Below are positions 4,246 through 62,874 of a stretch of DNA of 64,000 nucleotides, piece by piece. Each line of letters starts with the position of its first letter. Position 1 is the stretch's first letter. The translations under genes and the position numbers were made by a program. The stretch is from Xylona heveae TC161 (taxonomy: Eukaryota > Ascomycota > Xylonomycetes > Xylonales > Xylonaceae). The stretch is taken from positions 620,001 to 684,000 of the forward strand of contig NW_017264195.1 in NCBI RefSeq assembly GCF_001619985.1. Direction: 5' to 3'. Under the pieces are notes generated by a model that saw nothing but the letters and a program-made list of their open reading frames with translations, was not told the DNA's origin and searched no databases.

Positions 4246-6964
4246 TTACGATTTATCAAATTTCCATCCAATCCCTAGCAGATCTCCAACCTGCGCGAAC
4301 TCCCATTGCTCCAGCCACTTTTTGAGCCAATCCAGCTGTGTCCTGTCATTCCCGTCATACGCTATCATGCAGAGAACCTTTCCGATAACTCTAGCGCCCC
4401 CAGGGCCGTATTCGCCACCTTCGAAGACGAAATCATAGCCCTCACGTTCAACATATATTGGGTCAAGCAGTCCCATGAGTTTGTCCATTAGGCATCTGCC
4501 AATGCCCAGTTGACGATGTTCTGGGCGGACATACAGCTCTAATTCCACGGTATAGCGATAGGAGCTGCGAAGTGAATTATAATCATCTGCAAATCCGAAC
4601 CCCAATATATTTTCGCGCGATCCATTCCGACCTTTGTTCATCTTCCTGTCAACGGCCACCAACCATGGTAGCTTGCTCTCGCGCACGTCTTCCCATCGGC
4701 TTTGCATCTGCGAAATGGTTACTGACTCTAATTCAGAGACATACACAGATGTTTCCACATAATATTGATAAATATCTCTGATCTGCGAAAAGTCTGACGG
4801 CTGAACAGGACGTAGATAGATGTTTGCCTTCGGAGCATAAGGATTTGGAGGCGGCACGTAACTAGCCGCGTGCTCGATGAGCGAGGCCCTAAGAATCTTT
4901 TGACGCTGCTTTCTTTCCTTTTCGCGCCGAAGAACGCGGTTGCTGCGTTCCAGCGCCGATATCTGCGCAGTTTGCATTATATGGGATGCCGTGAACTCAT
5001 CTTCTGGATCTAGCAGAGAGCGAGGGTGATCCAAAGGTGAGCCCAGCAACCCATCTTCTTGCACAGGAGCCGAGCCATCTTGAAACGCAATGCTAGTCAT
5101 GTCTACCTTTGGAAATTGCTGCCTTTGAATCTGCCGAATCCAAGATTCCATGGTATCCATGAATTTGCGGTCTTTAAATGCCGGTCGGCTGTCCCATTCA
5201 ACCGGTGCAGGTGCCCATGAGCCATCCCAGTCAGCCAGCCGATTCTCCAAGTAAGCATCATCTTCTTCATTGCCGTCTACAACATCATCCGATCCTGCAT
5301 CTGCTCCGGCTATGCTCGGTAGCCCGCTTGCATTGTCCGTGCCCGGCACATAACTTCTTCTCGGCGTCTTCAAGTCCCTCCTTGCCGGCCACTTTGACTC
5401 CCGTCGGCGCTGAGAATTCGACGGATATGTGTGATCGCGGGTAAGATCTCCAAATCCTCCAATTGTAGGCTCTACTGTCAAAGATGGTTGATCATTGGGG
5501 ATATGGAAAGGAGGCTGTACCTCGGCTGGCTTGGCCATTCTATAATTTCGAGGAATGCCACGTTGCCTCTCTACTCGCTGTGAGGGGTTTGGAAGACTCT
5601 CAGGGCTTGGCGCTTGTAGACTTCGAGGACCCACCAGTTGAGGTTGAGTCGGGCTGGTCATGACTTCCGCTCCTACATGCTCAGGAGCATTGCTCGACTG
5701 AATCGTCGTTGCGTTGGAATTGGGAGCCATCTCCTTCGAAGACGGCTTTCTCTGAAGTGGTGGTTGTTTAAACGAATTGCCTGCTGGAGTTTCATCTCTC
5801 GATCCGAGACCATCGTTAATGACCTCAAGTTTGCCGTCTCCCTGAACTTGATTGAAATCATGTCTTTGCACTTCAACAGCCTGCGGCCTTTCCTCCTCCC
5901 AGTAAGACCAGGCATCGGAGGCAGGCTTTTGTTGCGGCGGTGTGGAGTGCATTGCGGACCGTAAAGGAAGAGACACGCCACCACGAGGCGTGTTAATTCT
6001 TGAACCAGTTGCATAGTGCGAATCATGTAAAGAGTTGCTGTGGTACCCTCGTTGGCTTTTAATAGGATTCGCAAAGCGATGTCCTGTATTTGAGCTCAAA
6101 TCCATATTTTGGTGCGGCCTTGGACCACGAGAAAAGCCACCACGCCCGGTGCGACCTTGACCCCTTCCACGTGATCCTCTGAAGGAGTTTCTTGGAAAGA
6201 ACTTTTGTTGTTCTCGAGGATGCATAACAGATAAAGAATTTGTCTCTTCATCACCTGGAGGACTCTTCTTTTCTGAAAGGATAGCAGCCGGTGGCCGTGA
6301 ACTGCAAGAACGAAATGTCCTAGGGGGGTGCATTGAACTTTTGGCAGACTGGGAGATGTTAGTTGACATAGGCGCTTCAGCCAGCATGGAATGCCAGTCA
6401 AGGGCAACATAAACCCGGGACAGCATTTCTGGACTTTCTGATGATCGCTGAATGAGAGGTGAAGATTACTGGATGCATGAAATTGAGACTCACATGATGA
6501 CTTGGCTCTGGAATTTCATTTGGAATTTCATTTGAACGTTCTCCGAGTGAGGGAAGGCGTACCGAATGCATGGTTGGCAGACTCGGCCCTTTTATATGAC
6601 CTGAGTGAAGAAAAGCCTCATTCCCATTCTCGTGTCCTGTGCCTTGTCCACCATGCTGTGGTAAACCTCCAGCACGGGCAACGTTTCTGTCCAAAAGTTC
6701 GATCTTTTCTGGTTCACTTTTTGTGAGAGAATACGAGTTGAATTCACTAGGCTCCTTGGGAGAATAAGCGGACCCTTGAACGTGCTGATTTCCAGCCTCA
6801 ATTGCCTTAGTCCGATAATTTCCAAGGTTTTGGCCCGGTGACTGCAACTGGGATGGCCACTGATTATCAATTTGATTACGATAACCGCGGCGCTTCCAGC
6901 TCAAACGCTGTCCGTTTGAAGAAAGCTTGCGCTGTCCGGCGGGGGAAGCTTCGTTAGTCATCAT
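4246..6964 (-). CDS. GNAT-family N-acetyltransferase with a long disordered N-terminus
   Basis: Two exons (6964-6494 and 6447-4246) joined across a very short 46-bp GTGAGT...TTCAG intron; phase is kept and gives 890 aa. Roughly the first 690 residues are low complexity, rich in Ser, Pro, Gln and Arg, with an RGRG/GRGG-type stretch near residues 240-255 that resembles RNA-binding RGG motifs. The last 190 residues form one GNAT domain: it opens with IYLRPVQPSDF, has the acetyl-CoA loop RPEHRQLGIGRCLM (Q-x-x-G-x-G/A type), and ends in a fungal extension (EGGEYGPGGARVIGKV, then WLEQWEF). The substrate cannot be read from sequence. The start (MTNEA, preceded by one more Met) is the first ATG of exon 1. 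Alternative view: an uncharacterised fungal protein in which the GNAT fold has a non-metabolic role. Confidence 0.8.
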
Positions 6965-48801: not shown

Positions 48802-51800
48802 ATGGCGACGACTTCGTCCATGTTTATGTATTCGTTGACGATACAGCCTCCCACTGCCGTCACGCAAGCTATATTGGGTCAATTCGCAGGAACCAAGGAG
48901 CAGCAGATCATAACCGCGTGCGGTTCTCGTCTGACTCTGCACAGACCCGACCCAACGCAGGGCAAGATTACAGATATTCTTTCGCATGATGTCTTTGGCA
49001 TTGTTCGAACGCTGGCAGCGTTTCGTCTCGCTGGCAGCTCAAAAGGTATGCTCTACTCCCTTCCAACCTCGGAAAGCTACATTTAGTGATGTCTTTTTGA
49101 AGTCTGGGCCACAGCGCGATCGACTTTACTTCCCGCGCCTGCTGGCTGAGCTTAGAGACCAATTTGCAAGCCGAATCGCTTTAAAGAACTGGGCTGAGCG
49201 TGAGAAATAGATTACATTATCGTTGGCTCCGACTCTGGCCGTATAACTATTCTTGAATACGTCCCATCTCAAAACCGTTTCAGCCGGTTACATCTCGAAA
49301 CCTTCGGCAAGTCCGGAGTCCGTCGAGTTGTTCCGGGACAGTATCTCGCTGTCGATCCTAAGGGTAGAGCATGTTTGATTGCATCGGTCGAGAAGAACAA
49401 GCTGGTTTATGTTCTGAACCGCAATGCGCAAGCCGAACTCACTATTTCGTCGCCGCTTGAGGCCCACAAAGCTCAAACACTTGTCTTTGCCATGGTGGGC
49501 ATGGATGTGGGTTATGAGAATCCGGTCTTTGCTGCATTGGAGGTTGATTACTCTGAATCAGACCAGGATCCCACCGGTCAGGCTTATGAAGAATTGGAGA
49601 AATCCCTCGTCTTCTACGAACTCGACCTTGGTCTCAACCATGTCGTTCGCAAATGGTCTGATCCCGTTGACCGGACTGCAAACATGCTTTTCCAAGTTCC
49701 TGGTGGCGCCGATGGTCCAAGTGGAGTTTTGGTGTGCGCTGAGGACAACATCACTTACAGGCACTCCAATCAGGATGCGTTCAGGGTGCCCATCCCTAGA
49801 CGTAAAGGTGTTACAGAAAACCCGGAAAGGAAACGATCCATCACAGCCGGTGTCATGCACAGGATGAAGGGTGCCTTCTTCTTCCTGCTCCAGAGTGAGG
49901 ATGGTGATTTATTCAAGGTGACCATCGACATGGTGGAAGATGACAATGGCCAGGCCACGGGCGAGGTTAGACGGTTGAAGATCAAGTATTTTGACACCGT
50001 GCCAATTGCTACGAGCCTTTGCATCCTCAAAAGCGGTTTCCTCTTCGTCGCCAGCGAGACGGGTAATCATCATTTTTACCAGTTCGAGAAGCTCGGTGAC
50101 GACGATGAGGAGCAGGAGTTTGACAGTGACTCATTCTCTCCTGACATTCATGAACCTTACACCCCCGTCTTCTTCTATCCTCGCCCGCATGAAAATCTCA
50201 ATCTTGTTGAGAGTATCGATTCTATGAATCCTCTGCTGGACTGCAAGGTAGCCAATCTTACAGATGAAGATGCCCCCCAGATCTATTCCATTTGCGGCAC
50301 AGGAGCTCGCAGTACTTTCCGTACATTGAAGCACGGTCTGCAAGTATCCGAAATCGTTGAATCGGAACTGCCAAGTGTTCCCTCGGCTGTGTGGACTACC
50401 AAACTCACTCAGAACGATGAATTCGACGCCTATATCATTTTGTCGTTCACGAATGGAACGCTTGTACTTAGCATTGGCGAAACCGTTGAGGAGGTTACAG
50501 ATACTGGATTCCTGTCCTCGGCACCAACGCTTGCTGTGCAACAGCTGGGCGAGGATGCTCTCATTCAAGTCCATCCCAAGGGCATCCGGCATATCCGCGC
50601 CGATAGGCGCGTCAACGAGTGGCCAGCTCCTCAGCATCGGTCCATTGTTGCTGCCACCACCAACGAGAGACAAGTCGCTATTGCACTGAGCTCTGGAGAG
50701 ATTGTTTACTTCGAGATGGACAGTGATGGCTCATTGGCGGAGTATGACGAAAAACGTGAGATGAGTGGTACTGTCACATGTCTTAGCCTCGGAGAAGTGC
50801 CTGAAGGTCGAGTGCGGAGCCCATTCCTTGCTGTCGGCTGCGATGACTCGACTGTGCGAATCCTTAGTTTAGATCCGGATTCGACTCTTGAGAATAAGTC
50901 CGTGCAAGCGCTGACCTCCGCCCCTTCCGCTCTGTCTATCATGTCTATGGCGGATTCTTCCTCGGGTGGATCGACCCTCTATCTCCACATTGGATTGTAT
51001 TCTGGTGTCTACCTACGAACTGTCCTTGATGAAGTGACTGGAGAACTCTCGGATACAAGGACTCGCTTCCTGGGTCCCAAGCCGGTCAAACTGTTCAGAG
51101 TCTTGGTGAAGGGCCAGACATCAGTACTTGCACTGAGTTCTCGGCCATGGCTGGGTTACTCTGATCTGCAGACGAAGAGCTTCATGCTCACACCTCTTGA
51201 CTATGTCGGTCTCGAATGGGGTTGGAACTTTAGCAGCGAGCAATGTTTGGAGGGTATGGTCGGCATTCAAGGCCAGAATCTCAGGTAATGCAACCCTCTC
51301 AACTCACGTCCCTGTGTTTTTGATCGGTGTATTTCTTGCATAACTATGATGAGAACTCTTTGTACTCTGCTTATGCCCATTGGCAATGAGGAGTCAACTA
51401 AATTTTTTCCAATTGTTCCTACTGAAGTTTATTGCTATTTTCTTCTTAACTGGCATAGTCTCCTGTTAAGCATACCTGATCTGACGATCTTCTAGGATCT
51501 TCTCTATCGAGAACCTCTCCAGTAACCTCCTGCAAGAGAGCATACCTCTCACTTATACACCTCGCCACTTTGTTCGACATCCCGAACAGCCTTTGTTCTA
51601 CGTTATTGAATCAGACAACAATGTTTTGTCACCGGCTACCAAGGAGCGATTATTAAATGACCCTGCGAAACCTGTCGTTAACGGAGATGCTACGGTCTTG
51701 CCTCCTGAGGATTTTGGATACCCCCGAGGACAGGGTCATTGGGCCTCTTGTGTTCAAATTGTCGATCCTGTCAGTGGCAAAGAAGTTGTCAAGTCCTTCG

Positions 51801-60884: not shown

Positions 60885-62874
60885 GTAGTGAAGGCCATGT
60901 ACAAGGCCGGCCCAGAAACTTATTCCCACTGTGGCTGGTATAGTTGATGTATTTACTAATGAGGCATCCCTAGGCGGTGGTCCAAATTGTTCAACTTTTT
61001 TTCACATATCTCAAAAAAAACTGTATATCTTAATCAATAGTATCTAAAATTGAAACATGGGAAGTCATGACGTGTCAGAGCTAGATGAACCACGCATCCC
61101 TTTCCAGGATTCCGTACTATGTACCAAGCTGCTCTATCATTTGATACAACGCTGTTGAGATCCCAAAAAAGGAGACTAGCAAGGCAGACGCTTAACGAAT
61201 CCTAGCAGGATCGAAGTACTAAGTTGAAAAGAGAGTGCCTGTTTCAGACATGTCTCGACGGATAAATTGCAAGCACCGCCCTCAGAAAAGCATGACGGGC
61301 CCGCACTCAAAGATCGTCGAAGATAAATTGGTCTAGTCTCATACATGCGGCGCAGCTTGGAAAGCCAACCGTGCATCCAGCTCAAGATCCTCCAACAGAA
61401 GGGTAGAAGACCGAGCGAGGCAGGAGACAAAGAAAAAGCGCGGGGAATTGAATAGCATGTTCTGACAAGAATAAGAAGAGGGCAGGGAGGACAAAACAAC
61501 CAAGTAGGAGAAGACGGCTTGAGAATCCATATTAGTGCGTTTGTTGGCAACACGGACAAGAGGTGTTCCAGTATAACAGAGCAAAAAGCCAGATCATTAC
61601 ATTGTGTTTTCTGCCAAAACCCAGCTCTTTGATTCACGTCTGCTTAGGGGGGGGGGTTTTGGGCAGATGAGGCTGTTGTCTAATTGATTGTCGAACATCC
61701 AGCACAGTTTGCGTGAACAAAATTTCGGTAACTTTATTTAGTAGGAGGGTGCTTATGTAATTCGGCACTTGTGTCCAAGGATCTCATCCGCGTGTGACAT
61801 CTCGCTTAGAATTGGGTCTCCCCAGTGTACTCGTATGCTTTTGGATTCCTTCCCTGTCGATGCTGGGGCTGAGCTAACTAGTTATACTGAACCGATAACA
61901 GCCACACCCAACATTACGCGTCTTGGCGGCTTACTCCCCTCGCTCCTCCGAGAGCTCAGTTGTCCTCCCTTCGCTCGTTTCGTTCTTGCCCTCTCCCGCT
62001 TCTCAGGTTATTCCTCAATCCGCCGCCAAGCCAAATGCCAAGCCCTGAACTTACCCATCTGAGTAAGGGGTCGCGTGCAGCTTCTGTGCTAGCAGGGTAT
62101 CCGAAGTATGTCTCCGCTGTTTTGTCCCGGATTGTCCTCCGGGAAAGGAAACGTCCTATGTCGTCAGCATAGTCCACAAATCTTCCTGTTACGTTCCTTC
62201 CTCTGTGGAGTCTTGGAAAAGGCCCTTGACAGCTGCACCCGGATTGGTCCATGATCTACTCTCCCCCGGGTGCACTATCTCTTTTAAACGATGTGGATAG
62301 TCTGCGCGTGTGGGCGTTCTGGCGTCTGAGCACTTGTCTTGACCAGGTTATACTCCAAGGTGTATGGTAAAAGTATACGCGCAACCATCAGCATGCTCGT
62401 GCTCTTCAGGATTTGCAACTTGAGTGTTGGAGCCTCACAGAGCCTCCTCAGCCCTAACTCTTCCAGACTTTGCTTTCTCTTCTTCTAGCAAACTAATGTT
62501 TGATGTTATGAAAGAGTGTGCTGTTTGTTTGTGCAGATAGATGGTCACATCTTCCACCACCGCCTGCTTTCTCTCTTAAGGCCTTTTTTTTGTTCATCCG
62601 GAATACTCTAAGCCAGGCCAGAACATTGTCTCAGCAATCACACATTCTCTTTTGCACTCAAGTCGTTTCGATATAGCTCATCGGCTCTGTTGGATATGCA
62701 ACGAAATTTATTTGTCTAGGCCAATGCTACAATACAGTGCAAGCTTTTCGGTTTAAGCATCACTTCAAGTGACAATCAACGGACCGCGTTCGAAGACCAG
62801 CTTCGGGGCCTGATACTCAGCTCGCGCCTCTCCAAAGCTGGGCTTGGCGCGCATTTCTATCAGCGCCCTCTAGC
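60885..62874. promoter_or_regulatory. Intergenic: nitrilase 3' UTR and CAS1 promoter
   Basis: About 2 kb. A run of 10 G lies at 61647-61656. A minus-strand frame of 63 codons from 61530 (MDSQAVFSYLVVL) has slight coding flavour, but I found no supporting exon. The right part (61900-62870) is pyrimidine-rich on the plus strand, like a long fungal promoter and leader. Confidence 0.45.

Follow-up and report, generated by a model that had tools for sequence, protein, structure and literature searches.

Does the second intron of a fungal splicing-factor gene harbour a guide for a conserved mark of the 18S rRNA? The question arises from a preliminary description of a 64,000-nucleotide stretch of Xylona heveae TC161 DNA (hereafter the window), which had proposed an intronic box C/D snoRNA aimed at the equivalent of yeast 18S Am541. 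The gene is RSE1, the fungal SF3B3, located on C3, one of the 17 contigs of a 24.28 Mb assembly. The 650 amino acids encoded upstream of intron 2 match the Pfam families Beta-prop_RSE1_1st and _2nd as well as PDB chains of SF3B3/RSE1 (top match 5hy7_A, 'putative pre-mRNA splicing protein'); a search of viral and prokaryote collections turned up no relatives of RSE1. Joining the five exons yields an uninterrupted open frame of 1211 amino acids, which requires the removal of the putative host intron (intron 2, 51285..51495, plus strand; 211 nt, GT...AG) together with the other three. A branch-site-like CTGAC can be read from the letters of intron 2 at 51481-51485 (plus strand).

The length of this intron had been put forward as a mark of a snoRNA host, and the argument holds in part. 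In a comparison covering the introns of RSE1 (165, 211, 58 and 60 nt for introns 1 to 4), intron 2 is far longer than introns 3 and 4. Intron 1, however, is long as well and gave no match when scanned against Rfam (E up to 5), so that length is only partly diagnostic of a host. Intron 1 (window positions 49046-49210, long for this gene) contains GTGATG, which resembles a C box, and CTGA twice. Length is thus no proof by itself, and the possibility that boxes and an rRNA-like word came together by chance within a remarkably long intron has to be weighed against the finer structure of the locus.

A box C/D RNA is recognised by a C box (RUGAUGA) and a D box (CUGA) near its two ends, by a short terminal stem beside them, and by a guide of at least 10 nt that adjoins the D or D' box and points to a plausible site at D+5. 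All of these were recovered on the plus strand of intron 2, within a predicted core of 88 nt (51342..51429) that is set back 57 nt from the 5' splice site and 66 nt from the 3' one, its ends being deduced from the boxes, the guide and the flush stem; outer paired ends could lengthen the predicted snoRNA to 51338-51435. The 5' arm of the terminal stem (AACT, 51342..51345) abuts a C box, ATGATGA (51346..51352), that fits the consensus, and pairs at 4/4 positions with the 3' arm (AGTT, 51426..51429), which in turn abuts an exact D box (CTGA, 51422..51425). Between these ends we located a C' box (ATGAGGA, 51386..51392) one change away from ATGATGA, and a candidate, degenerate D' box (CTTA, 51370..51373) one change away from CTGA. 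The latter abuts an internal hairpin (TGCC-CATT-GGCA, 51374..51385) that separates D' from C' and that appears in centroid folds, and as GCC/GGC in minimum-energy folds. The C box, D box, C'-like box and pairing ends named in the preliminary description were thus present within the coordinates it had given.

The guide itself (TCCAATTGTTCCT, 13 nt, 51408..51420, plus strand) is complementary with zero mismatches, as had been claimed, to AGGAACAATTGGA in the yeast 18S sequence assumed here. The claim based on the plus-five rule also stands: T51417, at D+5, faces the first A that follows GG in the target, which is the A541-equivalent residue, and the spacing between guide and CUGA equals that in the Rfam snR41 consensus. 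Yeast 18S Am541 is described as methylated with snR41 as the guide (PMC8307265). An intact 18S copy of the target stretch was sought in the assembly and not found. The lone 18S-like fragment present (L014, G000:C5) is diverged (90% identity over query positions 98-184) and carries AGGAACAATTG followed by AAGG, with which the guide pairs across 11 of its 13 nt, unbroken. The same fragment (G000:C5:222140-225231) shows, at about 1500-1640, insertions and base changes relative to the assumed 18S sequence, both within the 541 region and beside it, and from its letters it looks like a degenerate piece of rDNA.

How easily could such a combination arise by chance? The pattern CCAATTGTTCC-NN-CTGA occurs at a single site in the 24.28 Mb genome, the RSE1 intron 2 locus (0 sites for the reversed control), where 0.045 sites would be expected genome-wide under equal base frequencies, even before a C box, a stem and an intron are required. 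The bare 13-mer complement is found at three places (the RSE1 locus and two on contig C7), and the two contig C7 copies lack a CTGA within 48 nt after the 12-mer. A looser pattern does speak for coincidence: TGATGA precedes CCAATTGTT by 40-70 nt at 5 sites genome-wide, compared with a single site for the reversed control, and this pattern is therefore not specific; only the RSE1 locus among these five recurs in the guide-plus-D-box search. Eight exact RTGATGA/CTGA pairs with suitable spacing exist in the window, two of them with a flush 4/4 stem, and a 12-nt complement to any part of the rRNA would be expected in about 0.005 of such pairs, for an rRNA length that we assume to be 5400 nt. Viral contigs gave 32 matches to a near-identical 19-nt word, and in none of them (0/32) did RTGATGA occur in the upstream sequence (up to 100 nt, with only 45 nt available in the case of L021), which likewise argues against coincidence. 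Many of the flanks of these viral matches look alike by eye, and we took them as unrelated viral sequence. What was observed directly comprises the intron, its boxes, stem and guide, their spacing, and the fact that the assembly holds no second guide with a correctly spaced D box, and we consider a chance arrangement scarcely credible.

The covariance models were less forthcoming. Scanned at gathering scores, the whole window returned no report for the RSE1 intron 2 locus, and neither of the Rfam checks that had been suggested brings confirmation: snR41 (RF01218) scores 25.5 bits where 50 are required, and for SNORD62 (RF00153) the locus has no reported match. In a genome search with snR41 the RSE1 locus was the best of 5 weak matches reported (E 0.486; 55 of 2134 first-look candidates scored), a rank that means little by itself, because matches below the cut-off were also present in 9 of 14 control genomes. 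With SNORD62 (gathering score 39 bits), for which 55 of 2731 first-look candidates were scored, none of the 5 genome matches with E up to 10 fell on the locus, nor was this family listed by a cmscan of 51100-51700, a procedure that discards overlaps between families belonging to the same clan. The low snR41 score may be explained by the yeast model, which represents a two-guide RNA.

The snR41 alignment (51380-51438) places the C box of the model on the C' box of the locus instead of its C box, and this raises the prospect of a shorter RNA that would use ATGAGGA (51386-51392) as its C box. Its favourable points are that the cmscan alignment begins at 51380 and that TGGCAAT and ATTGCTA, read from the letters, could pair. 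However, ATGAGGA is off consensus and the resulting stem is not flush; the longer form, by contrast, combines a consensus C box with a 4/4 stem set directly against the boxes, and we judge the shorter RNA highly improbable.

For the longer form, the predicted folds add little: neither of the two folds computed is more stable than its shuffles (z 0.54 and 0.30, with 144/200 and 114/200 shuffles folding at least as well), and the terminal stem forms in the minimum-energy fold of 51336-51435 and not in that of 51342-51429. Box C/D RNAs are recognised more by their boxes and guide than by fold energy, and we therefore weigh the low Rfam scores and the fold energies lightly, although none of them strengthens the case. 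A published benchmark notes that it is in fungi and protists that Rfam-based search misses more C/D RNAs (PMC12309372), and the present locus would be an example of a fungal C/D RNA below Rfam cut-offs, in keeping with what that source notes for fungi generally.

The same low scores, together with the degenerate D' box, could also be taken as signs of decay, in which case the snoRNA would no longer be made or used and another locus would supply the guide for the Am541-equivalent residue. Against this, the C box, D box, stem and guide are all intact, and the assembly contains no second site at which the 11-nt guide core is followed, after two nt, by a CTGA (a search that a mismatched guide or another D box would escape). 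Degenerate C'/D' boxes are moreover usual, those of yeast snR41 being described as non-canonical and as not having bound Snu13 (PMC8413462). Hence, a decayed copy appears very unlikely.

Upstream of the guide, a second contact with the rRNA came into consideration. Two nucleotides before the D' candidate, the 8-nt word TTGTACTC (51360..51367, plus strand) is a perfect complement of 18S GAGTACAA, a weak candidate for accessory pairing, and GAGTACAA precedes the target of the guide by 16 nt in the assumed yeast 18S sequence and by 18 nt in the 18S-like fragment of the genome itself. Since 8-nt complementarity is also attained in 57 of 1000 shuffles of the sequence outside the guide, and since the same comparison yields a further match of 8 nt, between TTCCAATT, which overlaps the guide, and AATTGGAA, the accessory pairing is suggestive at best. 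That the RNA grips the 18S at two nearby sites, through the D guide (yeast 18S 538-550) and the accessory element, seems unlikely to us; if true, the accessory pairing could also help to fold that part of the 18S. Precedents point in both directions, since extra pairing is reported to raise methylation by other yeast snoRNAs such as snR13 and to play no role for the C/D region of U18 (PMC5389607).

Taken together, we consider it very probable, on the strength of the sequence features, that intron 2 of RSE1 encloses a box C/D snoRNA, about 88-98 nt long, with the A541 equivalent as the one target that it would methylate, and the original reading of the locus as a guide for this residue appears to be by far the best account of it. 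Expression, processing, protein binding and methylation are what we infer for this RNA, along the following lines. Once the RSE1 pre-mRNA is spliced, the intron 2 lariat would be opened, and exonucleases would trim it to the ends shielded by proteins on the C/D terminal stem. The proteins of such particles are Snu13, Nop56, Nop58 and the methylase Nop1. Within the assembled snoRNP, the D-box guide would pair with the 18S rRNA, and the A541-equivalent residue, which lies five positions from the D box, would be methylated on its ribose.

Two further loci in the window resemble snoRNAs. On the minus strand at 61248-61430 lies a full-length Rfam match to the box H/ACA snoRNA snR36 (69.2 bits, cut-off 43), so that, with the RSE1-intron element, the window probably holds two rRNA-guide RNAs; yeast snR36 is described as guiding 18S pseudouridine 1187 (PMC8307265). 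A C/D-like element on the plus strand at 6489-6551 has CTCAC/GTGAG ends and an ATGATGA, with CCGA where the D box would stand, and shows a weak Rfam match to snoR160 (21 bits against 42, E 0.69); it is possibly a small C/D RNA, and it may have arisen by chance.

The preliminary description had gone further and had seen, in a splicing-factor gene that hosts an rRNA-modification guide, a link between the spliceosome and ribosome production. This we regard as unsupported speculation, and we set such a regulatory link aside for want of evidence. The hosts of snoRNAs are reported to be broadly expressed genes, and snoRNAs in equivalent conserved introns not to be orthologous (PMC3511168). The introns of human SF3B3 host SNORD111A/B, which resemble the present case as box C/D snoRNAs in introns of the equivalent host gene, but which are predicted to guide 28S G3923 and hence are not the same snoRNA (PMC6124571). 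Because SF3B3 hosts a different guide and hosts are broadly expressed, RSE1 would be better viewed as a broadly expressed host than as a regulatory link.

Among known systems, S. cerevisiae snR41 (RF01218) shares the Am541 target, the guide core CCAAUUGUUCC and a CUGA at equal spacing with the Xylona element; the snR41 model has its 541 guide in the first half, whereas in Xylona the 541 guide stands at the D box. Intron 2 of RSE1 offers at most 6 nt of complementarity to the 18S around 1126 (a 90-nt stretch in the sequence assumed here), as would suit an RNA with a single guide. Searching the rest of the genome with one strict pattern, which may be wrong, revealed no separate Gm1126 guide. The human SNORD62 target sequence, in the form we take it to have, differs from that of the Xylona guide in the middle of the pairing region. 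SNORD62/U62 (RF00153) is given as the human counterpart for the homologous 18S site (PMC2780460), and yeast snR41 differs from the Xylona element in that it also guides Gm1126 (PMC8307265).

A literature search on snR41/SNORD62/A541 gave no paper, and neither did one on RiboMeth-seq with Aspergillus and snoRNA; the text of a small-RNA survey of Trichophyton rubrum (58 C/D RNAs reported) names snR41 0 times, and the word 'RSE1' has 0 occurrences in the text of PMC2780460 and PMC3596301. An RSE1-hosted snoRNA was not met in the literature searched, and we do not claim its absence from print. The kind of RNA, its target and its intronic location are already published, and the RSE1 host is the one detail that we did not meet. 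With this element, a well-formed guide for a mark conserved on the ribosome is added to a fungal genome; the finding has no bearing on a larger open question.

The closest parallel comes from Neurospora crassa, in which 45 of 55 C/D RNAs are reported as intronic, with the 5' splice site in most cases 41-60 nt away (PMC2780460), a range that includes the 57 nt of the RSE1-intron RNA. CD13 is listed there as an 84-nt intronic RNA with a D guide for 18S-Am538 (12/0; Table 1 of PMC2780460), with snR41-I in S. pombe, snR41, snR41Y and U62A/B as homologues. Likened by this table description, the two RNAs share an intronic location, a D-box guide and a homologous 18S site (538/541), and differ in the length of the match (12 nt in CD13, 13 nt in the Xylona element); the host gene of CD13 is not stated in the text of that source, where CD13 occurs once, in the table. 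Cluster III (snR41-snR70-snR51) is described as unspliced in S. cerevisiae and intronic in Euascomycetes (PMC3596301), and since Neurospora CD9 belongs to it, the 'snR41' of this cluster is probably the 1126 guide and not the RSE1-intron RNA. CD9 guides 18S-Gm1122, the other half of the work of snR41 (PMC2780460), and the Xylona element fits the Neurospora arrangement, in which the 541 and 1126 guides reside on separate intronic RNAs (CD13 and CD9), while yeast joins both in snR41. Judged by its sequence, the RSE1-intron RNA is an ordinary intronic box C/D guide, the predicted functional counterpart of Neurospora CD13.
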